A DNA stretch of 45,516 bases from a virus: positions 1-45,516 of the IMG/VR virus record IMGVR_UViG_3300020171_000054; one strand, written 5' to 3'. The position numbers and the translations under genes were made by a program. The notes beneath the pieces were generated by a model. The model worked only from the letters and a program-made list of their open reading frames with translations, was not told where the DNA came from and did not search any database. Position 1 is the first letter of the stretch. Each line of letters begins with the position of its first letter. This document shows, piece by piece, positions 1,369-45,222 of this stretch.

Positions 1369-2073
1369 TCACAGTCGTTCTAATATGTCCTTCAATCCAG
1401 CGGATATCTCTCCAACTTTCTCTTGATTCCCTAGCCGCCATTCGCCGGGTTCAATCGTCTCTCCCAAAGCCGATGTATAATCGCGGAACTTGAACCCCTT
1501 CCCGAATACCCTCTCTGAGTATTCCCACTGGTTCTCAATTCCCAAGGCGTCAGCTAGAATGATTCCATGTAGAGAGCTAGACATAATCCGCTCACACTTG
1601 GACGCCTCTCTCAAGACGTGTTCAATGCCGCCAGTAATCGGAATCACATGGGCGTCCTCACGATCAGCATGGATGTAGTGTGGGATAATCCCAAGCTCAT
1701 ACTGCTTCTTTTCCTTGGGGGCGAATAGAGAGCACAGCAAACCAAGATCGCCGTAAGGAATATCGCGTATGTCCAACATGTCTATCGCTATCCTATCCTC
1801 CGTCAATCGCCCTCTCAGCCCCAGGATAGTTGCCCCACCAAGATCTGTCCGCCGTGTCCCCTCGTTCATTATCCCCGTAGTCAGTAGCGTGCCTTTGAAG
1901 TCTTGGGGTACGTGTTCGATGATCGAGCCACATCCAAACAGATCGGCCTCATTCTGGCGTGCCCATCCAAACTTGATCTTCGTCAGCTTGTGTAGAAAGT
2001 ACGGTGTCAGCCAGTCGCCAAAGTTCCCAACCGACTTATCCCAGATATTCCCGCGATACCACCAAACTTTCAT
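1369..2073 (-). CDS. polysaccharide pyruvyl transferase family protein
   Basis: A 234-residue protein resembling the polysaccharide pyruvyl transferase superfamily (CsaB/GumL/WcaK type), which moves pyruvate from phosphoenolpyruvate onto sugars of surface polymers. Visible features are the N-terminal VGNFGDWLTPYF (NFGD, residues 17-20), GCGSIIEHV, the LGLRGRLT segment, YGDLGLL, a GIIPHYIH segment, then SSSLHGIILADALGI, the family's SxHG signature near the C-terminal third. It is shorter than many members (about 300 residues). The ATG overlaps the previous stop as ATGA. It sits in a tail operon with two glycosyltransferases, so it may modify virion or host glycans. Superfamily assignment is fairly secure; pyruvyl transfer itself is not proven. 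Confidence 0.8.
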   Translation of the reverse strand: MKVWWYRGNIWDKSVGNFGDWLTPYFLHKLTKIKFGWARQNEADLFGCGSIIEHVPQDFKGTLLTTGIMNEGTRRTDLGGATILGLRGRLTEDRIAIDMLDIRDIPYGDLGLLCSLFAPKEKKQYELGIIPHYIHADREDAHVIPITGGIEHVLREASKCERIMSSSLHGIILADALGIENQWEYSERVFGKGFKFRDYTSALGETIEPGEWRLGNQEKVGEISAGLKDILERL

Positions 2074-2408
2074 TTTTCACCTGCCATGTCTTCGAGTTCC
2101 GTCATCAGGTTATTTCGTGCCCATGCTGCCACCTCTTCGACTGACATGCCTTCTACCTCATCAGCCAACACGGAAGCCCGTACCTTCTCAGCAAGTGCCT
2201 CATCCGGCTTGTGATACGTCGTCACCAATTCCATCACTCTGGCAAAGCCCTCCCCTTTGATAACTAGAGTGATCGGCTTTGCAGTATCATTCACTCCTTG
2301 CGAAGTGAGGATGTCCACCCGCACCTCGCCAAATCGCTTACGCCCTGGGGTTACGTCTACCACAGGATTGATGGTGATATCGCACTCAGCATACACTTTA
2401 GGACACAT
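2070..2408 (-). CDS. hypothetical protein in tail/glycan operon
   Basis: A 112-residue acidic protein beginning MCPKVYAECD; the start is chosen because AAAGGAGAGAGG precedes this ATG, whereas the longer frame has no ribosome site. The first half looks beta-rich (ECDITINPVVDV, GEVRVDIL, PITLVIKGEG). The second half is helical (LAEKVRASVLADEVEG, VEEVAAWARNNL). It overlaps the upstream glycosyltransferase by 11 bases and the downstream pyruvyl-transferase-like gene by 4, so the three are translationally coupled. No family is recognised. A small virion or accessory protein is possible. Confidence 0.7.
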   Translation of the reverse strand: MCPKVYAECDITINPVVDVTPGRKRFGEVRVDILTSQGVNDTAKPITLVIKGEGFARVMELVTTYHKPDEALAEKVRASVLADEVEGMSVEEVAAWARNNLMTELEDMAGEK

Positions 2409-3210
2409 CCTCTCTCCTTTCCTCAAGCCACTCAAACAGGCCGTCAATGGCCTCAGTGTCAGTTGCGCCACTTGCTCGCATTCGTTTCAATGCGCGGATG
2501 GCAGAGTTTTGTCCTTCTCTTCGATGGTGAACCATCAACATCCTAACGACCTTCAGATTCACCGTCTTGAAGTGATCGAGCACCATGTCGCAATCCACCC
2601 AGATCTCGAAACCAGCAGCCCGAATTGCATCACACCACACATAGTCCTCAGTGGCGATAACGTCCGTTCGATCTTCCGTCATCGACATCCGAAATGTGCC
2701 GAGAGGGATCGCCTCCATCACGTGGCGCTTTATAAGGATCCCGCTATTGCCAACCCGGTCACATTGCCTCAACCCGACATAGCCGGCCATCGGCTGAATG
2801 TACAGCGGCTCATACGGAATCACGTCGATGTCTTGAGGCTGCTCGAAGTGGCGCGCTAGTTCGATATCAAGATCTGTGCCGCCGTCTCGTACCCCAACAC
2901 AAGGCAGCGGCCCTTGATCCCCACCCCATCTATACCCAAGCGGAATCACGACATCTTTATCGTGCGCCAATAGCCTGTCAAGGGCGTTCTCTGGCAGATG
3001 CTCGTCATCGTTGATCAGGAACAGATATTCGCAATCAGTCGCCAGAAACTCCTTGAGCAGCGTATTGACCGCCAATTCAAGCGGCCGATAACGCGTTGCC
3101 TCAACGACAGTAATATCGTACTTTCCAGAAAGGCACCATTGTCTCAGGCGATAGGACAGACTCGTCCCAACCGACCCTTGATTCGGTACACCAATGAAGA
3201 TACTCGGCAT
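2398..3210 (-). CDS. GT-A-like glycosyltransferase, copy 1
   Basis: A 270-residue protein with a glycosyltransferase-2-like layout. It has an N-terminal beta strand PSIFIGVPNQG, then YLFLINDDEHLP (the NDDE at residues 67-70 replaces the usual DxD metal site), then DRLLAHDKDVVIPLGYRW, and a C-terminal EDYVWCDAIRAAGFEIW segment with a likely catalytic acidic ED. The layout parallels the protein at 42388-43011, so the two are paralogues. No membrane segment is seen, so it would be soluble. It lies within the tail operon, 2 bases after a tail gene. Substrate unknown; it could act on virion proteins or host surface sugars. Confidence 0.78.
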   Translation of the reverse strand: MPSIFIGVPNQGSVGTSLSYRLRQWCLSGKYDITVVEATRYRPLELAVNTLLKEFLATDCEYLFLINDDEHLPENALDRLLAHDKDVVIPLGYRWGGDQGPLPCVGVRDGGTDLDIELARHFEQPQDIDVIPYEPLYIQPMAGYVGLRQCDRVGNSGILIKRHVMEAIPLGTFRMSMTEDRTDVIATEDYVWCDAIRAAGFEIWVDCDMVLDHFKTVNLKVVRMLMVHHRREGQNSAIRALKRMRASGATDTEAIDGLFEWLEERREDVS

Positions 3211-3212
3211 GG

Positions 3213-3608
3213 CTACGCCTGCGGTGCAATCGTCACTGTGATTGCGTTAATCGCAAACACAAGTTGATCTCCCACACCAATCAGCTTTGAGACTGTCAAT
3301 GCTCCAGAGGCAGAGAACTTGCCGTCACCTTCCACTGTCGTTGTTGCGATTGCCAACCAGCCAATCGTGCCCCAAGTGCCTGTAACCGCTGCTGGGAATT
3401 CTACGGCTGCTATGTTCTTCGTCGAACCAGTCGCCGCCGTCGCCATTGATAGCGTCATTCGTGTGTAGCCATACGACGCCGAAATCTCCGCCGCTGCTGT
3501 TCCTGCATCCCCTGGGTTTGCGTCACAACATGCCGCCCAAATATTGTCCGTCCGAAACTCCGCTGTAAGAATCTGATTTCTCAGCGCCGTTGTAAATCCG
3601 CTTGCCAT
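3213..3608 (-). CDS. small tail/virion protein, WGT-motif family
   Basis: A 131-residue protein starting MASGFTTALRN; this ATG is preceded by AGGGGTG and suits the family better than the GTG three codons upstream. It resembles a widespread phage tail-associated family of about 130 residues. Members carry an N-terminal LxNxxL helix, a statement such as FPAAVTGTWGTIGWLAI, and a beta-rich end with GDQLVFAINAITVTI. All three are visible here. It follows the Dit N-terminal gene directly. The exact structural role (tail tip or fibre base) is not established. Confidence 0.7.
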   Translation of the reverse strand: MASGFTTALRNQILTAEFRTDNIWAACCDANPGDAGTAAAEISASYGYTRMTLSMATAATGSTKNIAAVEFPAAVTGTWGTIGWLAIATTTVEGDGKFSASGALTVSKLIGVGDQLVFAINAITVTIAPQA

Positions 3609-3619
3609 CTCAATCACCC

Positions 3620-4198
3620 CTACTTGATCTGTCTCGTGATCAACGTGAATCCTGTCACGTTACCAGAGCCTGCTTTCATCGTGATCGTCATCGTCGGAGG
3701 TGTTCTGTAATCCCCCGCGTTTTCGACCGCCATTGTTTGATATGCCGCCGTTATGTTGTACGTATCAGTGTCTTCCGCCGCGTACGAGAATGGATCAGCC
3801 GCAAGCAATGGCAATGAGAAGTATCCCTTGCTTCCGCCGACCAGTCGCGTCAATGGCATCTTCCCCGCATAGCGAACCGTATACGTATAGCCCGCTTCCT
3901 TGGTGAACACGAGAGCCACGTCTTTCGGATGTCCATCCTGATCAAGCAACACTTGAGAAAATGTCTTTGTGAGGCTCTGTAGCGTCTCAGGGGTGGTTGA
4001 ATCGATCATCACGAGATCGAGCACGATGATTCGTGGCCCAAGATCGGTTGTGAACAGGTGAACGCCATTACGTCCGGGGATCACCACCGATTGATCTCTA
4101 GTTTGTGGCAGAACCGGCTCGTCAAAGTCTGGCATCAGCTCGACACCTAGTGTCGTGTTGGCTATGCCCCCTATCGTGAATCTGCTTATGTCACTCAC
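3620..4198 (-). CDS. distal tail protein (Dit), N-terminal half only
   Basis: A 192-residue protein in the Dit position, immediately after the tape measure with a GTGA overlap (GTG start). The sequence fits the N-terminal belt domain of Siphovirus Dit proteins: VVIPGRNGVHLF near residue 40, a central GKMPLTRLVGGSKGYFSLPLLAADPFSY, and VENAGDYRTPPTMTITM. In usual Dits the chain then continues into a galectin-like C-terminal domain ending near xxPRxL. Here it stops after TLITRQIK. Domains matching the missing half occur at the C-termini of the proteins at 43369-45222 and 41055-42401. Dit identity is strong; the split is my reading. Confidence 0.8.
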   Translation of the reverse strand: MSDISRFTIGGIANTTLGVELMPDFDEPVLPQTRDQSVVIPGRNGVHLFTTDLGPRIIVLDLVMIDSTTPETLQSLTKTFSQVLLDQDGHPKDVALVFTKEAGYTYTVRYAGKMPLTRLVGGSKGYFSLPLLAADPFSYAAEDTDTYNITAAYQTMAVENAGDYRTPPTMTITMKAGSGNVTGFTLITRQIK

Positions 4199-7100
4199 GT
4201 GCGCACCCCCTCAGAGCGTAGTCTTGATTGGAAGAGGCTATAGTGTTCGCGGGCGATAAGTTCGATGTCTGACTCAGAGCGCACGTTCAATATTGCGCCA
4301 TCGTACATGCCGCGCATGTCGATAGAGATGTTGCCTGCGCCGGCAAGCATCGGCTGTTGAGGACTGAGCGCATTGACAATGCCATCACCAATCTTTGCGA
4401 AGACACTCTTACTGAGAGGGAGATAGGCTTCGGCCACGCCGCTTTCGGCCACCATGTGCGGGGGGAGAAGCGTTGGGCTATCGAATACAGCGCCCTCCTT
4501 GAAGCCGATCAAAGCACCACTAAGCGCAAGAGCACCACCTCCAAATGCGGCAGCAGCGGCAGCAGCAGCATGTTGTGCTTGTAGAGGGACGGCCCATAAT
4601 CCGCCAAGCACAATAGCGGCGGTATACGCCAGAGCTTTCGCAGCTTCCGTTATGCTGAGAATGAGTAATTCTTCTTTCGCGGCAGTGAGCGCCGTCTGCA
4701 GGATCTTCCACATAGCCTCGCCGAATGAGACTGCTAAATCTTCCATCGCAGTCTCCTCGTCTGCGATTGCCTCTATTCGGTCGTCTCTCAAGTCTCCTAT
4801 TGCAGTGGTATAAGCGGTTTCCATGTCGGTCATCTTGCGATCATGGTCGATCTTGGCATCTTCTAGGCGGTCTTGATAATTTATGAACTCTCTTTGCTGC
4901 GCGTCATAATCACTCGCATTCACCATCGCCCTTGCATGGTCCCGAGCTAAATCTTCTAGCTTGCGATCATAAGCAAGTTGCGCAGCCGCCTTATCCTCTT
5001 CGTAATCTGCGTCTGTTGTTTCTAGATCTGTGACATAATCTTCTTCGATCTCCAACATCCGATTAGCATGTTCTTCGGCAGCCCGTGTCTTGTCTCTATA
5101 GTAATTAAACACACCTTCGAGCATTGCGCCGAGTGTCTCGCCAACATACTCCAAGATATTTTCCCAGACTGTTTTAGTGGCCTTCTCGAACGTTGTCAGT
5201 TGTTGCGTTCCTCCAAGAGTTACCTTTTCAAACGCAGCAAGGATCAGCAATAGATCGCCGCTTGCTGTAACCCCAGCATCACCGAGAGCTTCGACTTTCG
5301 TGGTTACCTCATCATATATGCCACGAAGCCGTTCGAGAATTTCAGCCTGTCTCGCACCGCCATCTATCGCGTCATCATATGCCTGTAGTAATTCCAGCGT
5401 TTCGTTTAACAACCCATGTTCTGACTGATATAGCGCCTTATTAGATTGAGCGAGAAGATCCTGTGCATCAGCAAGCCGCTCTGCTTCTGTCCTCATCGCT
5501 CGCGTCACTATGCCGGCGGCCTCAAGAGTGGCGATATGGTCTAATGTTGATTGAGCAACCTCGATATTGGCCTCTGTGAGATAGTCCACTTGGTCCATCA
5601 ATTCATCGTACTGCGCCTGCTGTTCTTTCAGCGCATCTGTATATTCAACAGAGCCAACAGGAGAATCTCCCATAATCTTATTCAGTTTTTTGTATCTTTT
5701 CTCTAAGTCCTTAATCGTCCGTGCGGCTTTGGTTGTTGATTTGATTGACTTGTCTTGTTCACGGGCATACTTCATCGTTTCGGTAATCAATGCCTGAAGT
5801 GCGGCAGATACTTCAAGATCGCCCTCAGCAAGATACTCAGCCGCGGCGGTTAGCGCATTGTGGAATTTCTCAAGGTCTTGCAGGGCAAGGGCATATTCGT
5901 AGCTGCCCTCTTCTGTCTCATTGAGCGCGGCGAGCAGATCGTTGTACTCCTGGACGAGAGCGGATATTGCAACGACTGTATCATCTGTGTCGTCTGCTGC
6001 CCCCTCTTGGCCGGCGCGATATTCAGCAAGCAGACGGTTGACTTCGGCTATGGCGTCTTTGGACGTTTGCAGCATTGTGTTGAGCTTCCCTGTGCTTTCC
6101 GCTGTAACGTCTGACGCATCTGCAACCCCGATATATCCTATGCGTAGCGTTCCGAGTTCTGGGTACAACTCAGCGAACTTCGCAAGAATAATGTCAACCC
6201 CAAGAACCCAAGCATCGGCCATATCTTCTGGGGCAAGTTGCAATACTGCGCTTTGGAGATTGAATAGCTCTTTGATTATGTCGCCATATACTTCTTTGCT
6301 GATCTCTCCAAGGTTCTTCATCTCGGTTATGGTGTCTGTTAGCCCTTCGTAGTAATCGGCGCTGACGATATTACTCTTCGATGCGCCGTCTAGAGCCTTG
6401 ACCATCGCGTCGATCTCTTTATTGAAATCGCGCATCTCTTTGGCCGTTCTTGGCAATCCATCATCGCTAGAGAGGATAGCAACGAGAGAAGCAATACCAG
6501 CAACGAGAAGCAATATCGGATTCGTATAAGCAGTGATTACAAATAAGCCAGCACCAATCGCTATCAAGGCGTTCTTCACCGCAGTTCCATTATCAATCAT
6601 CCATTGGAACGGCGCGATGATCTTCTTGATTGCTGTCTCGAAGATAGAAGTCCCATCCGCCGCCTCTGTCATTCGGTTGACCCACGGGATAAGGGTACCA
6701 GTCACAAACTTCTGGATGACGGGCAGCGCCTTGGTCCCAATCGTCACAAGCAGCAGCTCAATCGAGCCTTTCAAGATCTGCCATTGTCCCGATACGGTAT
6801 CGAGCATTGCAGCCTGTTGATCGAACGCGACGGATGTTCCTGTGATGGATCCCTGGTATGCTTCAAGAGCGGCCTGCCCTTGTCCAATCAAGATGTTCAT
6901 CTCGCCGGCAGCGCCCGCGAAGACAGCACTCATTGCTGCCATCTTCTGTTCGGCTGTATATCCGAGTTCGATGAATGACTCTTCGAGCTGTCCAACTAGC
7001 TCGATGACTCCGATGAAGTTACCTTCGGCGTCGAATGTGTCAATATTGAGTCGCTTGAGTGCATCCGCCGCTTCGTCTGTTGGATCGGCTAGACCCTCAA

Positions 7101-7797
7101 GCGCTGTAGAAAGCGCCCTGGTTGCCCGGCCACCTGTCAAGCCAGCGTCCCCCAGCTTTGCAATGACGGTCAACGCCTCTTCCATCGGTCTGTTCAGTGC
7201 AGCCATTACAGGTGCAAGATACTTCATCGACTCGCCCAGGGTATCAACCGTAGTCGCAGATGAAGACGCAGCAGCGGCCAGGGCATTAGCTACCCGTGTT
7301 GATTCTGAAGCCTCTAACCCCATACCCTTGAGAACTGCGCCCGTGATGCGTACAGCCTCGGCAAGCTCCATCACCTGAGATTCGGCTAAGGCAACAGCAC
7401 CATCCATCGCCAAGACAATCTCAGTCGCAGTAAATCCGGCACGAGCAAACGCCTCCATGCCGTCTGCGATCTCGGTCATCGTCTGTGCGGTATCAAGCCC
7501 TAACTGTTTCGCCTTTTCGGTTAGAGCCTCAAACTCGTCAGCAGTAGCGCCTGAAATAGCCTTGACCTTGGCCATAGCCAATTCAAAGTCGGCAGCCTTC
7601 TTGATAGCGGAAACGAAGACAGCACCAGCGGCAATAGCAAGACCGGCAAAGATGAGTTTGCCCGCCTTCCCTATCTTCGTCAGCACATTATTGAACTTGG
7701 CTCCGAAGGAAGCACCGGCAGTGTTGACCGCAGCTAGGTCCGCAATCGCGGCTGCCTTGTTGATGCTTATAGTTCCGAAGAGCCGAAACACTTCCAC
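4195..7797 (-). CDS. tape measure protein
   Basis: A 1200-residue protein, the longest in the genome, between the tail chaperones and Dit. Near the N-terminus (about residues 70-360) is a TP901-like tape-measure core, including the phrases FELAMAKVKAISGAT and VALAESQVMELAEAVRITG. Hydrophobic segments occur near residues 47-66 and 400-445 and again near 1090-1130. Between lies a long charged helical or coiled-coil region. It sets tail length and enters the host envelope on DNA ejection. At about 0.15 nm per residue the tail would be near 180 nm. The start is GTG after AGGTGATTTCTA. No peptidoglycan hydrolase motif was recognised. Confidence 0.93.
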   Translation of the reverse strand: MEVFRLFGTISINKAAAIADLAAVNTAGASFGAKFNNVLTKIGKAGKLIFAGLAIAAGAVFVSAIKKAADFELAMAKVKAISGATADEFEALTEKAKQLGLDTAQTMTEIADGMEAFARAGFTATEIVLAMDGAVALAESQVMELAEAVRITGAVLKGMGLEASESTRVANALAAAASSSATTVDTLGESMKYLAPVMAALNRPMEEALTVIAKLGDAGLTGGRATRALSTALEGLADPTDEAADALKRLNIDTFDAEGNFIGVIELVGQLEESFIELGYTAEQKMAAMSAVFAGAAGEMNILIGQGQAALEAYQGSITGTSVAFDQQAAMLDTVSGQWQILKGSIELLLVTIGTKALPVIQKFVTGTLIPWVNRMTEAADGTSIFETAIKKIIAPFQWMIDNGTAVKNALIAIGAGLFVITAYTNPILLLVAGIASLVAILSSDDGLPRTAKEMRDFNKEIDAMVKALDGASKSNIVSADYYEGLTDTITEMKNLGEISKEVYGDIIKELFNLQSAVLQLAPEDMADAWVLGVDIILAKFAELYPELGTLRIGYIGVADASDVTAESTGKLNTMLQTSKDAIAEVNRLLAEYRAGQEGAADDTDDTVVAISALVQEYNDLLAALNETEEGSYEYALALQDLEKFHNALTAAAEYLAEGDLEVSAALQALITETMKYAREQDKSIKSTTKAARTIKDLEKRYKKLNKIMGDSPVGSVEYTDALKEQQAQYDELMDQVDYLTEANIEVAQSTLDHIATLEAAGIVTRAMRTEAERLADAQDLLAQSNKALYQSEHGLLNETLELLQAYDDAIDGGARQAEILERLRGIYDEVTTKVEALGDAGVTASGDLLLILAAFEKVTLGGTQQLTTFEKATKTVWENILEYVGETLGAMLEGVFNYYRDKTRAAEEHANRMLEIEEDYVTDLETTDADYEEDKAAAQLAYDRKLEDLARDHARAMVNASDYDAQQREFINYQDRLEDAKIDHDRKMTDMETAYTTAIGDLRDDRIEAIADEETAMEDLAVSFGEAMWKILQTALTAAKEELLILSITEAAKALAYTAAIVLGGLWAVPLQAQHAAAAAAAAFGGGALALSGALIGFKEGAVFDSPTLLPPHMVAESGVAEAYLPLSKSVFAKIGDGIVNALSPQQPMLAGAGNISIDMRGMYDGAILNVRSESDIELIAREHYSLFQSRLRSEGVRT

Positions 7798-7807
7798 TAG
7801 AAATCAC

Positions 7808-8218
7808 CTACTTCTCTTTAATCTTCACGCCCGGAGGAAGCACCGCTATCTTCTTCACGCCCTTCGCAAAGGCTCGTTTGATGTCCTCATCCGTCAATGT
7901 TCGGCCGCTCTCTTCCACTTCGTCACCTAGTCCAAGCTGTGCCAGCCAATTCTTGAACGGGATAACCTCTCGGTTCTTCCCTTCGCCTACCGTCGGTGGT
8001 GCCATTCTGTAGCTCCATAGCGCTTCCCACCGCCTTTCTTCTTTCCTCATTTCGCCAGTTACCCTGACTGCCTGAAGCAACCTGGCATACGGTAACGCTA
8101 GGACTTCTTCGTCGGTCCAGCTATACCTCTCTTGGATGCCGTCGATGGCCCTCTCGAAACCTTTCTCGCCGTCAGACTCTGAAGCGCTGGATGTTTCATC
8201 ATTCGCTTCACACTGCCG
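7808..8218 (-). CDS. tail assembly chaperone, T extension (reached by -1 frameshift)
   Basis: This frame is open from the slippery site at 8218-8224 to its stop, 136 residues, and has no convincing start of its own (the first Met-like codon at 8080 is a TTG with no ribosome site). The new frame reads GFERAIDGIQERYSWTDEEV and LALPYARLLQAV, typical of the T part of G/GT-type chaperones, which bind tape measure and tube subunits during tail assembly. It should be made only as a 275-residue fusion with residues 1-139 of the preceding protein. It sits directly before the tape measure, as expected. Confidence 0.85.
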   Translation of the reverse strand, partial: RQCEANDETSSASESDGEKGFERAIDGIQERYSWTDEEVLALPYARLLQAVRVTGEMRKEERRWEALWSYRMAPPTVGEGKNREVIPFKNWLAQLGLGDEVEESGRTLTDEDIKRAFAKGVKKIAVLPPGVKIKEK

Positions 8219-8634
8219 AAAAAAGCTTGCACGTCCTCATGTTCTAGCAAGGCTTCAATGACCTTGATCTCTGAACCGAGCGGGAATACGTCTGGATCGC
8301 GGATGGTGCCCGTGTTGTCCGTTGCTTCGTCGATCTTGTCGAAGACGATGCCGCGCGCTATCCCGAGATAGTCGGCCATCCAGTCAATCACTTCGTCCAT
8401 TGCCAGCGGAAGCAGATCAAGGATATAGGTTCCTACTTCCATCGTGCTGACGTTGCCCATGTTCGCAAGCGCATTACGGCCGCCGGCCTGGACAACCGTT
8501 GCAACGATCTTTGCCGCTCGCTGAACATCGAGCAAGCCTAATCGACGGAGCTTGTATTCCTTCCCTTCGATATCGAGAACCGGAGGGGACCACGTAAGTG
8601 GCCCCGCTCCGCTTGTCTTGCCTTTCTCAGTCAT
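8098..8634 (-). CDS. tail assembly chaperone G
   Basis: A 178-residue protein between the tail tube and tape measure genes. It has the mixed character of siphovirus tail chaperones: an N-terminal beta section (DIEGKEYKLRRLGLLDVQRA), then helices rich in Ala, Leu and Asp, and a basic C-terminal tail RGIAGPTKKS. The start ATG follows AGGGGGATGA. After codon 138 it carries the slippery heptamer TTTTTTC, which gives a longer GT product. Like lambda gpG, it should help the tape measure nucleate tail assembly and be absent from the virion. Position and frameshift make the call strong although sequence similarity is weak. Confidence 0.85.
   Translation of the reverse strand: MTEKGKTSGAGPLTWSPPVLDIEGKEYKLRRLGLLDVQRAAKIVATVVQAGGRNALANMGNVSTMEVGTYILDLLPLAMDEVIDWMADYLGIARGIVFDKIDEATDNTGTIRDPDVFPLGSEIKVIEALLEHEDVQAFFGSVKRMMKHPALQSLTARKVSRGPSTASKRGIAGPTKKS
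8218..8224 (-). promoter_or_regulatory. programmed -1 ribosomal frameshift slippery site
   Basis: The minus strand reads T TTT TTC, in register with the chaperone codons GCT TTT TTC, so both tRNAs can re-pair one base back. The -1 frame is open for the next 136 codons, and the zero frame ends 40 codons later. The heptamer U UUU UUC is a known slippery sequence. The placement is classical for tail chaperones. Confidence 0.85.
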
Positions 8635-37553: not shown

Positions 37554-38078
37554 TCAAGTTTTTAGCCATGCCCAAGATTTCCCTCTAGCGATATGTGATA
37601 TATTCGATCGATCTACTCCGAATTTCTTAGCTATGAATTTCTGAGACTTCTTTCCTAATAATGATCTGATAACTATAACGTCATCTTCTGTAAGTTTAGA
37701 TAGATTGCTGTCTGATCCTCTTACAGGTTTATGTAGCCCAGTCCTAAATGCGTGTAGTTGATTCTCTGATGGAATTAGATACTCTAAATTTTCAACGCGA
37801 TTGTTTATTTTATTTCCGTCGATATGATTCACCTGTTTCCCGATAGGACATTCACCAAGAAACGCTCTAGCAACTAGCCTGTGACATAAATGGTCAGGTG
37901 CGCTGTCATCTTTATTCAACCATACCCTTGCATAGCCAGTAGAATGAATGTTCGGTTTCAGGATTCGTCCAACGAATGTACTCTTATAGGCTTTAATCCT
38001 TCTAACTCGGCCTCGATCACTAACATCATAGATTCCTTCAAACCCTAAAATTGGTAGCCATCGTTCCTTGTCGCTCAT
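37554..38078 (-). CDS. HNH homing endonuclease (NUMOD4-HNH-HTH)
   Basis: A 174-residue protein: NUMOD4-like WLPILGFEGIYDVSDRGRVR, then an HNH core with LCHRLVARAFLGECPIGKQV, NHIDGNKINNRVENLEYL, and a C-terminal helix-turn-helix (SKLTEDDVIVIRSLL, QKFIAKKFGVDRSNISHIAR). DNA is clearly more AT-rich than its neighbours, which suggests insertion. It lies in the middle of the lysis and envelope genes and has its own likely promoter. Confidence 0.85.
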   Translation of the reverse strand: MSDKERWLPILGFEGIYDVSDRGRVRRIKAYKSTFVGRILKPNIHSTGYARVWLNKDDSAPDHLCHRLVARAFLGECPIGKQVNHIDGNKINNRVENLEYLIPSENQLHAFRTGLHKPVRGSDSNLSKLTEDDVIVIRSLLGKKSQKFIAKKFGVDRSNISHIARGKSWAWLKT

Positions 38079-39060: not shown

Positions 39061-41058
39061 CTATGCTGGTTCCCTGAATGCTAGGTATCGCAATACTCCG
39101 CCGATATCACACGTAATCAAACCTTCATGTCCAATCGCCAGCGTAACCGAGTCGGTTGCGACGATGCCTTGGATTGTCATAACCGCCCCGCCGGCAACCT
39201 GCATCTTTATCTCGCTCCCGGCTGTCAGATACACATCGCCACCCGCCTCAATGTGGGTATCAGTCGCCGCGTATACGGTCCCAGTTGTCGACCAGCGAAG
39301 GGATCCAGTTGCATTAAGCAGAAGATAGGTTGTCGCATTCACTCCATACCAATAGTTGCTCGATGGATTGAATGCCTGAATCGGCCCAACAGCTGAATAC
39401 CCTGTACCTCTGAAGTCCCCGCAGTTGACGAACGCGTGAGAGTTCATGTTGAGATCGGCTAACAGCGTTCCGGTTATCGATCCGGATATAAGGATGCCCG
39501 ATCCTGTCCACTTGAAATAGCTAGAGGCATCGCCGATATTGAACAGGGCATTGACGCCACCTTCCCCCAGCCAGAAGCCCGCCGTGTTGTCCGCATAGCT
39601 TGTCTTGCCTAACTTGATCGCCCCGGCATTCGCCAGCGTGATCGTCTGCGCGTCAAGCGTCCCCGTCGTCAGCTTGCTAACCGTCAGCGTGGCAATCTTC
39701 CCGTCCGTAACGGCTAGATCGGTGATCTGATTCGTGCCAATAATGTTCACCGTCGCGTCTAGATTGATGGACGATACCTTGATCGACAGCGTTCCGGCTA
39801 CCGGATTGAACCTGAAGTAGTACGCTCCATGTTCGGCATAGAGTCGCCCAACGTTATCCATGTACGTCTTCCAGTTTGCTCCATCGCTATATCCCAAGTA
39901 GTCGGTAGTGATATAGAGTCCGGCGCTGCTCGGCACACCTGGAAGCGCCCCAGGAATGCCACCTGGAATATCCGTGATGTTGATTCCAGAAAGGTCGTTC
40001 ACGCCCAGCTTGGGAGATAGATCAAACTCCTCCCCCTTGTTGGCGAATGTTAGAGTGATGTCCCCCGGCTTGCCGGTTACGTCGCTTTTCCTGATCTCCA
40101 TCACTCGAACGTCAGTCGTGATATCAATCTCCGGATTATCTACTTGGACCAATGCCCCGATGGTGAATGAATCGATAGACTCGCCCGTCAGTTGATAGAG
40201 GTCCGCTTGATCGATCCAGTACGTATACGCTGGCTCTGAAATGACAGCCAGGTATGCCACAGCCGCGGCGTAAAGTTCAGCCGCTGTCGTGTAGCGCTGA
40301 TCCGTCCAATGATGAGTAATCGTCCCATACGTCGCGGTGTTGTTCGTGATATAAGCGTTGCTCGATGGCTCTTCTGAGGTGATGCCAATCTGATCCGCGC
40401 CCGCATTGGCCCCATGAGGATAGAGCTTCGTTACAAGCCCTGTGAGGTCCTTCTTTCGGCTTATCGACTTCATGTTGCGTCCATAGTCCACATAGGCTGT
40501 AATGGTCGTTGGTGGCACGATGAGGTTGAGCGTCCACGGATAGCTCGACGTGTCGAACGTCCAGAAGTAGCCAGACTGGAAGCGCTTCGGAATATCGAGA
40601 ATCGCTTTCAGAAGCGACACACCCCGTGCCCATTCGTAGAGGTAAGACTCAGAGAAGGCACATGTCCCTATCACCCAGCGTCCGGTTCCTTGTTCGGCGA
40701 GGATCGCAGCAATAGCCGCGGTTGTCCCCGCCGGAGCGCCCGTGTAGAACGTATCATCGAATTCGTCATCCATTAGCGTTCCGAGAACATGCTCACACTC
40801 GAACCGCTGATATTCTTCCCCTCCCTTTTGATCTTTCCAGCTCGTGAGGATCCGGAACAACTCAACCCGCGTGTCGCCGTCGAATATCTCGGCATAGCGC
40901 AGCTCTTGAATCTCAGAAAGGTGAGTGTCGTCTAGTGGCACAGAGAACCATGCCCGCCCGACTTCGTTCGCTCGGAGGTGATAGGCAACGTCGAAGGCGA
41001 GGGGAAGATAGGCCACCTTATTGAGGCTAGTGTCGTAAATGATTACAGGTGCGTTCAT
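39061..41058 (-). CDS. Tal-like tail tip / prophage tail endopeptidase-family protein
   Basis: A 665-residue protein. Residues 1-340 match the tail-associated (gp18/Tal-like) N-terminal fold that caps the tail tip: YHLRANEVGRAWFSVPLDDT, FDGDTRVELFRILTSWKDQK, GGEEYQRFECEHVLGTLMDD, then SLLKAILDIPKRF, RKKDLTGLVTKLYPHGANAG. The C-terminal 250 residues are fibre-like with repeated strands (ITDLAVTDGKIATLTVSKLT, LYADNTAGFW type). It binds Dit in other phages. It starts with an ATGA overlap on the Dit-C-ending gene. No peptidase residues were identified. Confidence 0.85.
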   Translation of the reverse strand: MNAPVIIYDTSLNKVAYLPLAFDVAYHLRANEVGRAWFSVPLDDTHLSEIQELRYAEIFDGDTRVELFRILTSWKDQKGGEEYQRFECEHVLGTLMDDEFDDTFYTGAPAGTTAAIAAILAEQGTGRWVIGTCAFSESYLYEWARGVSLLKAILDIPKRFQSGYFWTFDTSSYPWTLNLIVPPTTITAYVDYGRNMKSISRKKDLTGLVTKLYPHGANAGADQIGITSEEPSSNAYITNNTATYGTITHHWTDQRYTTAAELYAAAVAYLAVISEPAYTYWIDQADLYQLTGESIDSFTIGALVQVDNPEIDITTDVRVMEIRKSDVTGKPGDITLTFANKGEEFDLSPKLGVNDLSGINITDIPGGIPGALPGVPSSAGLYITTDYLGYSDGANWKTYMDNVGRLYAEHGAYYFRFNPVAGTLSIKVSSINLDATVNIIGTNQITDLAVTDGKIATLTVSKLTTGTLDAQTITLANAGAIKLGKTSYADNTAGFWLGEGGVNALFNIGDASSYFKWTGSGILISGSITGTLLADLNMNSHAFVNCGDFRGTGYSAVGPIQAFNPSSNYWYGVNATTYLLLNATGSLRWSTTGTVYAATDTHIEAGGDVYLTAGSEIKMQVAGGAVMTIQGIVATDSVTLAIGHEGLITCDIGGVLRYLAFREPA

Positions 41059-42401
41059 AAGTACCTCGGTTTGTGGCTAGTCTCAAAGTCAGCGTCCCTG
41101 GTTCCGTCGTCATCCTTCCATTGTAGTTCATTCGTCCCGGCGTAGAGTTGAGGAAACTTGCCCGTGAAATATCGCGTCGCATTCACGCCATTGAGTTCGA
41201 CGGTTTGCTCGTCTACGTCGATCACGAGAACGTCGCCCGCTATCAGTGTCCCGGTGTAGCCCATTGACTGAGTAACGTAAGCAAGGGCCGCGATCTCGGC
41301 AGAGCTGACGGCGGTGATCGTTACCGCGCCATGTTTCCATCTAGATGCGAGCGCAATCATGGATGGAGCCGCAGCAATATCTATAGTCCCCACGACTGTA
41401 ACGGAACCAACCGCCGCAAGAGAGGAAATGATTACAATAGGAATAATGCCAGATGCGATTCTGTCTCCATCCGCTGCCAACGAAGACACTGCCTGAACGA
41501 TACAATATGCCAGCGTTCTGTAATCCGCAGTTAAACTAGAAATCGCCACGATGGATGCGCTAGCCAGAGTCCGCGAGCCACCTAATAGAATCAACGAAGG
41601 AACGGAAATTATCGTCACGTCTCCAGACGCAATCCAGTTTCCTGAAGCGGAGAGAGAGGCTCCGGACAAAAGGGCAACAGCTCCCACGCGAATCCTTCCG
41701 GCAGAAGCGGTTACTAAAGGGACTGATGAGATAGACGCATTCGCATAAGCGATGTTGTCCCACGTCAAGCCGCTAGGCAGTATAGCCGGAGGAGTAAAGC
41801 TGGTCGTGATTGTAGATGTTCCCCCACTATGTTTATAGATCATGGACGCTGGTGCTACTGTAAGATCACAAGACCATAAATTATTCAAATCATCCCATGC
41901 TAGTCCGCTAGGATCTGCTGCCGGGCTAGCAAAACTAGTCGTTATTGTTGAGGTTCCGCCAGAATGTTGATATATGCGCCCAGGGTCTATAGCGTCGCAC
42001 GACCAGAGGTTCCCGGCATTATCCCACGTAAGATCATAAGGGGCTGCCGCAGGCGACGCGAAGCTGGCTGTAATCGTAGAAGTTCCGCCAGAGTGATGGT
42101 AAATTGCTTGAGCATCAGTATCACATGACCATAGATTGTTAGCATTATCCCACGTGAGACCGAGAACTAGAGTTGAGGGACTAGCGAAGCTGGTCGTGAT
42201 TGTTGCGGTTCCGCCAGAATGCTGATAAATTTTATCTAAAGCACCACCAGAACACGACCACAGATTGCCGACATTATCCCATGTCAAACCAGAGGGGACA
42301 CCAGGAGAAGAAAAACTTGTTCGAATCGTAGAAGTTCCACCAGAGTATTGGTATATTTTCCCAGTCCATCCATCACACGACCAGAGGTTACCGGCCATCA
42401 T
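41055..42401 (-). CDS. beta-propeller-like repeat protein ending in Dit C-half
   Basis: A 448-residue mosaic. Residues 1-215 hold five full and one closing blade of about 42 residues, each with LTWDNxxNLWSCD and IYxHSGGTSTITTSFASP; the last LTWDN would pair with the first NLWSCD to close a six-bladed ring. Residues about 215-365 are short repeats akin to 43369-45222. The last about 78 residues (MGYTGTLIAGDVLVIDVDEQ, TVELNGVNATRYF, GTNELQWKDDDGT, HKPRYL) match a Dit galectin-like domain. It lies just before Tal. Probably a tail-tip receptor or glycan-binding protein. Confidence 0.78.
   Translation of the reverse strand: MMAGNLWSCDGWTGKIYQYSGGTSTIRTSFSSPGVPSGLTWDNVGNLWSCSGGALDKIYQHSGGTATITTSFASPSTLVLGLTWDNANNLWSCDTDAQAIYHHSGGTSTITASFASPAAAPYDLTWDNAGNLWSCDAIDPGRIYQHSGGTSTITTSFASPAADPSGLAWDDLNNLWSCDLTVAPASMIYKHSGGTSTITTSFTPPAILPSGLTWDNIAYANASISSVPLVTASAGRIRVGAVALLSGASLSASGNWIASGDVTIISVPSLILLGGSRTLASASIVAISSLTADYRTLAYCIVQAVSSLAADGDRIASGIIPIVIISSLAAVGSVTVVGTIDIAAAPSMIALASRWKHGAVTITAVSSAEIAALAYVTQSMGYTGTLIAGDVLVIDVDEQTVELNGVNATRYFTGKFPQLYAGTNELQWKDDDGTRDADFETSHKPRYL
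41760..42390 (-). repeat. tandem DNA repeats encoding propeller blades
   Basis: Five imperfect units of about 125 bases, marked on the plus strand by repeated versions of gttccgccagaatg and tatcccacgt. They encode the 42-residue blades of the 41055-42401 protein. Confidence 0.75.
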
Positions 42402-43011
42402 TCATCACCAGCGCCTTGTTGACTGCCAAACTCCTCATGTGGATGTCATGGTCGCATATAGCATCGAAGTCAACGGCAATAGGGAATCCCGCCTCTCTAA
42501 CGCTCTCGCAGAAGTAGAAGTCTTCTGACAGCCCTTCGGTTCCAAATTCGTCATCATATCCAAACTTGAACGCCGGACGCTGAACCTTCTCCATCACCTC
42601 GCGTTTGATAAGAGTACATGCACAGGTTGTCACGTCTACATGCTGGGCGCCTTCTCCGTGATGAGGAAGATACCCTCCCCTATCTTCGTCCCATCTGAAC
42701 GACATCGGCATCAGGTGGTCTTGCCATATCTGAACCAGCCCGGCAACCATTGGCAAATCATGGGCAAGCAAGCGATCCAAGATGTCCGGCTTTGGAATCG
42801 TGTTCGCATCGAGAAAGAACAGATACGAGTATCGTTCTTTCAAAAACTCTTTGTGGCACAGATTCCTTGCACGATCCCACGGCTTCACGTTCTGTGGAGC
42901 AAACACCTTCAAGTCATACTTGCCAGATCCAAACCACGCGAGAAGGTTCATCGCATTATCTGTCGCGATGTTCCCCAGATTCGGAATGGCGATGAAGATG
43001 CTTGGCTTCAC
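42388..43011 (-). CDS. GT-A-like glycosyltransferase, copy 2
   Basis: A 207-residue protein from a GTG that overlaps the previous stop (TAGTG). It has PSIFIAIPNLGNIATDNAMN, YLFFLDANTIPKPDILDRLL with the metal-site DAN (68-70), VDVTTCACTLIKREVM, and GLSEDFYFCESVREAGFPIA with an ED acid pair near the end, then CDHDIHM. It is shorter than but paralogous to 2398-3210. Its 3' end overlaps the propeller gene by 14 bases. Sugar donor and acceptor unknown. Confidence 0.8.
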   Translation of the reverse strand: MKPSIFIAIPNLGNIATDNAMNLLAWFGSGKYDLKVFAPQNVKPWDRARNLCHKEFLKERYSYLFFLDANTIPKPDILDRLLAHDLPMVAGLVQIWQDHLMPMSFRWDEDRGGYLPHHGEGAQHVDVTTCACTLIKREVMEKVQRPAFKFGYDDEFGTEGLSEDFYFCESVREAGFPIAVDFDAICDHDIHMRSLAVNKALVMNDGR

Positions 43012-43368: not shown

Positions 43369-45222
43369 CTATAAATACCTCGGCTCATGCGCCGTCTCAA
43401 AGTCTGCGTCACGGCTCGCGTCGTCGTCTTTCCATATCAGTTCGTTCGTTCCCACGTAGAGCTTCGGGAATGTCCCCGTCATCAGCGAGCGCACATTCGT
43501 CTTGTTCAGTTTGACGGTCATCGCGTCGGTATCAATCACGAGCACGTCACCTGCTGCAAGCGTGCCGGTATATCCGAACAACTGAGTGATGTAGGCAATG
43601 GCGGCGATCTCGGCTAAACTCACTGCCGTTATCGTCACCGCCCCGCTTGCAACCTTCACGCCAGCCGACACCATAGACGCCACGGCAAGGATGGCCACGG
43701 CGGCAAGGACACCTCCAACAGCTTTAGCAATCAGCGACGCAATTACCTGAATAGCAACAGTGGCCGAAGCGATCCTGCCCCCGTCTGCTGCTAGCGATGC
43801 AATCGCCTGAATGGCAGCAGCGGCTACAGCATGAACTCTGCCTGATATAGCAAGCGAAGCAACAGAATCGATCGACACCACGCCGGCCAATCTTCTGAAA
43901 GCGTCTACGTCCAACGACGTTATCGCGTTGATTGCAGCAAGCCCTTGCTGTATACGTAGCGGATCCGCTTCCATCGACGCGACGGCCACGAGCGCCGCAA
44001 TTGCCGAAGCAATCCTGTCGCCATCCGCCCCTAGCGATGCGATTGAGTTGATGTCGATTGTCCCCGATCCGATCCTGTTTGCGGCACAAGCCATGGCCGC
44101 AATGGACTGGATTGCGCAGAAGGCATAAACAACATCTATCCCTGTAGCCGTTGCAATGAGTGACGATATAGCGTTGATTGCAACAATCGCCGAAGCAATC
44201 CGATCTGCGTCAATGGCGAGAGAGGCTGAAGAGTTGATGTCAACAGCAGCTTGACGTTTGCCGTATGCCTGTGCCTCTATTGACGCAATGGCCACGATGG
44301 ACGCGATAGCCGAAGCGATTCTGTCCCCATCCGCCACAAGCGAAGGAACGGCGTTGATGCTTGCAGCGCCACCAGCAGTCCTATTCCCGCCCGCTATAAG
44401 CGACGCGATAGATTGAATGGCAACGGCGGCCAATCGAAGCACATCGCCATCAAGAGTCAATGTTGAGACGGATTCAATCGCGGCCACCGCCGAAGCAATG
44501 AGATCGCCGTCAATGAACATCGAAGCGGCAGAGTCAATCCCTGTCGCCCCCGAGAATGTGCATGTGGATGTACCTGTCACTGACGAAACTATAGCGAATG
44601 CTGCCATTCCCCTGCATAGCGCATTCGCGTCTAGAGACATTGACGCCACAGCGTTGACATCCACCGCGCCAGACATCACTAAGTTTGCTGCTGCGGTAAG
44701 AGCCGCAGCCGCACTGATCGTCGCTCTAGCTGCCCGTATCCGCGCAGCCAAGGCCACAAGAGACGCCACCGATTGAATCGAACACAATCCAGGGCGAACT
44801 CTCAGCGGTTCGGCAGTCAATGACGCCGATGATTCAATCGCGGCCAATGCTGATGCAATCAGGTTTCCGTTGATTTCTAGTGCCGAAACAATGGCAAGCG
44901 CGGCGATGGCAGAAGCAAGCTTGTCGCCATCTATCACAAGCGACGTGCTCGCCTGAATCGCAGAAATAGCCGAAGCAATCCTGTCCCCGTCAACAGACAG
45001 CGATGGGACTGAGCTAATCGCGGTCGCTACTCCCCTCTTGCGGTAGGAAAGAGCGATCAGCGACGATATTGCATCAACCGCAGAGACGGCGGCAGCGGTT
45101 CGGTTTCCGAAAGCGGCCAATGATGCTGCGACAGAGATGGATGTCTCGCCATTTTTTATCGCGAGACCGACTCCCCCTGTCGAGCCATACATCGCCGCGC
45201 CGTACAGATTACGCCCGTAAAT
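43369..45222 (-). CDS. long 20-residue-repeat (solenoid-like) protein ending in Dit C-half
   Basis: A 617-residue protein if started at ATT (45222), or 607 from ATG 45192. AGGAGA lies five bases before the ATT and reads IYGRNLYGAAMYGSTGG; no site serves the ATG, so the ATT start is favoured. Residues about 30-530 consist of roughly 25 units keyed by DGDRIASAIAAIxAIASLxA, Ala/Ile/Ser-rich and likely a beta-solenoid. The last about 80 residues (FGYTGTLAAGDVLVIDTDAM, TVKLNKTNVRSLM, GTNELIWKDDDAS, HEPRYL) match a Dit galectin-like domain. Probably displayed on the tail tip. Confidence 0.72.
   Translation of the reverse strand: MYGRNLYGAAMYGSTGGVGLAIKNGETSISVAASLAAFGNRTAAAVSAVDAISSLIALSYRKRGVATAISSVPSLSVDGDRIASAISAIQASTSLVIDGDKLASAIAALAIVSALEINGNLIASALAAIESSASLTAEPLRVRPGLCSIQSVASLVALAARIRAARATISAAAALTAAANLVMSGAVDVNAVASMSLDANALCRGMAAFAIVSSVTGTSTCTFSGATGIDSAASMFIDGDLIASAVAAIESVSTLTLDGDVLRLAAVAIQSIASLIAGGNRTAGGAASINAVPSLVADGDRIASAIASIVAIASIEAQAYGKRQAAVDINSSASLAIDADRIASAIVAINAISSLIATATGIDVVYAFCAIQSIAAMACAANRIGSGTIDINSIASLGADGDRIASAIAALVAVASMEADPLRIQQGLAAINAITSLDVDAFRRLAGVVSIDSVASLAISGRVHAVAAAAIQAIASLAADGGRIASATVAIQVIASLIAKAVGGVLAAVAILAVASMVSAGVKVASGAVTITAVSLAEIAAIAYITQLFGYTGTLAAGDVLVIDTDAMTVKLNKTNVRSLMTGTFPKLYVGTNELIWKDDDASRDADFETAHEPRYL
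43650..45170 (-). repeat. tandem DNA repeats of about 60-66 bases
   Basis: Recurrent plus-strand phrases such as gccgaagcaatcctgtc and agcgatgcgat, spaced by multiples of about 60-66 bases, encode the 20-22-residue units of the repeat protein. Units differ throughout, so divergence has proceeded. Confidence 0.8.

Follow-up and report, generated by a model that had tools for sequence, protein, structure and literature searches.

A two-piece distal tail protein whose galectin domain appears to be completed by the ends of arm proteins

The distal tail protein, Dit, is a ring protein at the tail tip that is normally made as one chain, and it serves as the hub on which the receptor arms of siphophages are built. 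In the window analyzed here, i.e. the complete stretch of 45,516 nucleotides forming the IMG/VR virus record IMGVR_UViG_3300020171_000054, a Dit-like gene stops short, and the ends of two long proteins encoded elsewhere in the record read like the part it lacks. This raises the question of whether a single Dit could be assembled from the products of separate genes, and what the sequences attached to its second half might then contribute. The pieces concerned are:

3620..4198, minus strand: Dit N-piece, 192 aa, with a belt/RIFT domain and the first galectin-domain strands, ending in GFTLITRQIK before the stop codon
43369..45192, minus strand: arm protein, 607 aa, with ~20-residue repeats followed by a Dit C-piece
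43372..43614, minus strand: Dit C-piece 1, 81 aa, matching phrog_33 214-277 (E=1.3e-11)
41055..42401, minus strand: arm protein, 448 aa, with a beta-propeller, repeats and a Dit C-piece
41760..42401, minus strand: beta-propeller, residues 1-214 of the 448-aa arm, from its predicted structure and a weak Vgb_lyase match
41058..41300, minus strand: Dit C-piece 2, 81 aa, matching phrog_33 214-278 (E=3e-12)

Residues 15-132 of the N-piece match PF05709 (E=1.2e-7, 32.4 bits against a cut-off of 24.2), which identifies the belt/RIFT domain. The protein further aligns with PHROG families annotated as 'distal tail protein Dit' (phrog_33 positions 39-215 and phrog_202 positions 21-192, E~1e-17), and its profile matches positions 43-168 of the SPP1 Dit chain 2x8k (E 2e-5). 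These matches uphold the proposal of the initial annotation that the gene encodes the N-terminal half of a Dit, to which the first galectin strands have to be added: the chain extends ~50 aa beyond the belt and terminates inside the galectin domain, so that the C-terminal galectin domain is not contained in the same chain as the belt. An AlphaFold model of the N-piece from four sequences reached a pLDDT of 37; its best Foldseek matches are Dits, the model being too poor for them to count.

Both C-pieces exceed the curated cut-off (25 bits) of PF22768, the SPP1_Dit C-terminal domain, with 26.8 bits in the 607-aa arm (residues 552-616 of a 617-aa frame, profile positions 35-97) and 33.3 bits in the 448-aa arm (residues 379-447, profile positions 31-97), and a PF22768 search of the whole record gave no match outside the ends of these two ORFs. 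They cover just the second part of this profile. On phrog_33 the N-piece stops at 215 and the C-pieces, searched alone, begin at 214; on 2x8k the C-piece profile matches positions 194-235 (E 1.3e-3) in a search independent of that with the N-piece. The view that the ends of the two arm genes represent the missing half of the Dit is thus well founded. The two C-pieces share 70% identity as proteins and 68% as DNA. The first arm gene had been delimited as 43369-45222, and its terminal C-piece stands; its start does not, because the 617-aa frame from 45222 opens without a usual start codon, making the ATG at 45192 the more likely start. In a model of the 448-aa arm the propeller is predicted with a pLDDT of ~80 and finds propellers in Foldseek (E down to 2e-8); the C-piece in the same model is not confidently folded. 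A family of unannotated function, phrog_31951 (173 aa), matches the repeats and C-piece of the window and its relatives, and therefore probably represents, judging from these alignments, the same kind of arm protein.

The named genes of this region all lie on the minus strand, and the neighbors of the pieces place them in the customary position of a Dit gene between tape measure and Tal, the N-piece following the former and the C-pieces preceding the latter:

4195..7797, minus strand: tape-measure-like protein, recognized by length and position, directly upstream of the N-piece
3213..3617, minus strand: Gp80-like protein (PF23140, E=3.2e-19), directly behind the N-piece
39061..41058, minus strand: Tal-like protein, 665 aa (PF06605 Prophage_tail, E=2.6e-28)

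The Tal-like gene follows the 448-aa arm gene with a 4-nt overlap, in keeping with the Dit-Tal order noted earlier. The order from N-piece to C-pieces spans the contig ends; joining these yields a single open frame of 191 aa, and therefore the N-piece, the genes downstream of it and the arm genes constitute one continuous late-gene run. The tail-fiber run also includes a polysaccharide pyruvyl transferase-like gene (1369-2073, minus strand; PF04230), near which lie two glycosyltransferase-looking genes without Pfam matches (2398-3210 and 42388-43011), and downstream of Tal there is an HNH/NUMOD4 homing-endonuclease-like gene (37554-38078, minus strand).

The split recurs in at least 14 further loci (L013=L027, L020, L023, L025, L026, L028, L047, L048, L053, L055, L056, L058, L059 and L062), each with a Gp80-like gene behind the N-piece, and in a local-profile scan of all loci the C-piece had an ORF of its own wherever a split locus offered enough sequence. 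Two groups can be recognized. The first comprises the window, L011, L012, L026=L016, L013=L018=L027, L028=L017 and L015; its N-pieces are 48-82% identical to that of the window and share its end point (as in L011 and L012). The gene order in this group is tape measure, N-piece, Gp80-like gene, further genes, C-piece arm, second C-piece protein and Tal, and it is uninterrupted in three contigs (L026, L013 and L028). The second C-piece of L028 stands alone as a 99-aa protein just upstream of Tal (phrog_33 214-277). The second group comprises L020, L023, L025, L047, L048, L053, L055, L056, L058, L059 and L062, along with the partial L057 and L063; here the order is tape measure, N-piece, Gp80-like gene, a single C-piece arm and Tal, and the C-pieces lack the GYTG strand motif. 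Of these, L047 lies within a Defluviitaleaceae assembly and L048 within a Clostridia genome; no host emerged when genomes were scanned with the N-piece of group 1. The Gp80-like gene is present behind all complete split N-pieces of both groups and absent from the intact loci scanned, and the fiber protein encoded by it might form a third component of the Dit device. The domains of the arms vary, with BNR_2 and Laminin_G_3 in L013, the beta-propeller in the window and repeat stalks elsewhere. The initial suggestion of an insertion that opened a single Dit in this phage is not borne out: the split predates the window and is fixed in many phages, and neither an insertion scar nor a pseudogene was found. 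L023 bears on one contig both an intact Dit-like gene (4176-4949) and a split N-piece (8007-8561), with Tal-like and holin-like genes between them, and is possibly a composite prophage.

In the intact Dits of L019, L021, L024 and L051 and the evolved Dit of L049 the N- and C-terminal parts lie within one ORF. Nine of ten genomes checked with PF22768 have an intact Dit, with matches starting at position 2-7 and no extra Dit half detected by this profile. Across 391 Clostridia genomes PF22768 gave 72 matches, and starts at position 25 or beyond were confined to four genomes: two with the split (L047 and L048), one with L049/L050 and one with an ordinary Dit (L051). The third of these genomes encodes both the evolved 492-aa Dit L049 and L050, a frameshifted, decayed copy of that tail region. 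Among INPHARED phages the relatives examined in detail carry intact Dits. The sugar-binding modules of evolved Dits are located either between the belt and the galectin domain or in loops of the latter (PMC7291167, PMC8540738, PMC10688798). On the 523 positions of phrog_202 the alignment of the N-piece ends at ~192 and that of the C-piece starts at ~453, and the break coincides with the site of the long insert of intact Dits of this family, of which L049 is an example. The arms are joined to the C-piece at this very site, albeit not in one continuous chain with the N-piece. Because the break falls where the insert begins, the two-piece Dit looks, at the level of these alignments, like an evolved Dit cut just ahead of its insert.

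To judge from dN/dS, which is ~0.07-0.18 for the N-pieces, 0.05-0.15 for their galectin tail alone and 0.10-0.14 for the C-pieces (rough values, with synonymous sites near saturation in several pairs), both halves are under purifying selection and their function is maintained. In a tree of the belt domain the split N-pieces form two clades among intact Dits; with six long-branch intact rows omitted the AU test rejects a single clade for them (p=0.0009), and with these rows retained the well-supported branches leave one origin possible. The C-piece tree displays the same two groups, with a single clade not rejected (p=0.115). The intact Dit of L019 is the sister of the window's group in both trees, and this agreement supports the N- and C-pieces being halves of one ancestral Dit. 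The split thus seems to have arisen twice; because a single C-piece clade is not rejected, a transferred cassette whose N-part was exchanged later is also possible. The two C-pieces of the window are sisters, in line with the earlier claim that the C-half was duplicated, and in group 1 generally the two C-pieces of a genome form a cluster of their own, which suggests that they were duplicated repeatedly or underwent gene conversion. Two subtypes of the C-piece middle segment (DxQT..TRYF versus DxMTVKLN..RANM) recur in three genomes (the window, L013 and L028), and the last 35 residues are genome-specific and homogenized within each genome, three genomes being too few for a firm claim.

We consider it probable, at roughly 0.77, that these loci specify a two-piece Dit, with the N-piece as belt ring and the galectin domain completed by the C-pieces of the arm proteins. 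What the computation shows is homology and complementarity of the pieces, their conservation and gene order, selection on them and congruent trees; we infer in addition that the pieces reassemble non-covalently, that the ring is a hexamer and that the arms bind a receptor. The N-piece would form a hexameric belt ring between the tail tube and Tal, carrying the first galectin strands; the remaining strands would be supplied by the C-terminal ~80 residues of the 607-aa and 448-aa arms, the pieces folding together non-covalently at the ring periphery into one galectin domain. Each C-piece would thereby plug its arm, either a repeat stalk or a stalk with a beta-propeller, into the tail tip. The function would be akin to that of an evolved Dit, except that the chain is severed before the insert, which stays attached to the C-piece; arms of the propeller, BNR, laminin-G or repeat type would thereby be clip-on parts. 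From the resemblance of their domains, the arms may bind carbohydrate.

A rather different account would take the 192-aa protein for a short Dit sufficient in itself, with the C-pieces serving as autonomous anchors elsewhere on the tail tip. Belt-only Dits of ~120-140 aa do exist (PMC8540738), lambda gpM being an example (PMC7291167), and in certain relatives the C-piece match to PF22768 begins as early as position 9-11, so that these C-pieces may include additional strands themselves. However, split N-pieces with complete ends measure 178-201 aa and continue ~50 aa into galectin strands evolving at the low dN/dS given above, the C-pieces of the window begin at PF22768 positions 31/35, and N- and C-pieces strictly co-occur wherever enough sequence is present for their pairing to be judged. 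Hence, we regard it as unlikely that the N-half is by itself a complete Dit of another type. It is much less probable still that recombination switches the N-piece, in invertible- or cassette-style, between stored C-half cassettes to which it is joined in turn: two C-pieces per group-1 genome and the apparent shuffling of arms between C-piece subtypes would suit such a system, but every copy found is a separate ORF, the C-pieces of the window are just 68% identical in their DNA, no recombinase is seen beside them and group 2 has a single C-piece. Joining of the pieces by readthrough or frameshifting was ruled out, as they lie genes apart, and no domain match suggests intein splicing. The location of the window's pieces at opposite contig ends might raise the suspicion of a decaying Dit or of an artefact of assembly or frameshifting, but this is scarcely credible and already refuted by the relatives: they have the same arrangement within single contigs, which stem from several metagenomes, and in two assemblies of Clostridia; both pieces are under purifying selection; and the decayed copy L050 has a quite different appearance.

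For the two-piece Dit, the split suggests how receptor arms could be clipped to the tail as exchangeable units. A more elaborate version, to which we give slightly less than even odds, is a mixed ring in which interchangeable C-pieces complete the galectin domain in trans, with several kinds of receptor arm per virion, and which arose twice at the same site; its stoichiometry would perhaps be 3+3, matching the trimeric Tal below the hexameric Dit. What makes the arrangement of broader interest is a natural cut in the Dit galectin domain, seemingly made twice where other phages insert modules. If the reading is correct, a single hub could bear arms of several different kinds, and phages could swap these arms in the form of separate genes. 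Another suggestion arising from this cut is that repeat proteins of 'unknown function' like phrog_31951, which is without the annotation as a Dit part that we propose for the arms of the window, are Dit parts.

Searches of the open-licence full-text literature yielded Dits of the evolved and minimal kinds and none in two pieces. The SPP1 Dit (gp19.1, PDB 2x8k) has the same belt and galectin domains, different stretches of which match the two kinds of pieces in the window; it is, however, a single 252-residue chain, whereas the window divides the protein between separate genes for two kinds of piece and has two copies of the C-part, each fused to an arm. The evolved Dits of Lactobacillus J-1, the lactococcal 936 phages and Oenococcus OE33PA, and those of phrog_202, likewise have extra, often sugar-binding modules on the galectin region. 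Their insert interrupts a continuous chain, whereas the chain in the window is broken before it, and, unlike them, split loci can hold several C-pieces per genome. In phages p2 and 80alpha the periphery of the Dit is the docking site for receptor-binding proteins (PMC7291167), a role shared with the arrangement proposed here; but in those phages they dock on a complete Dit, whereas in the window the docking element would be the missing half-domain itself.
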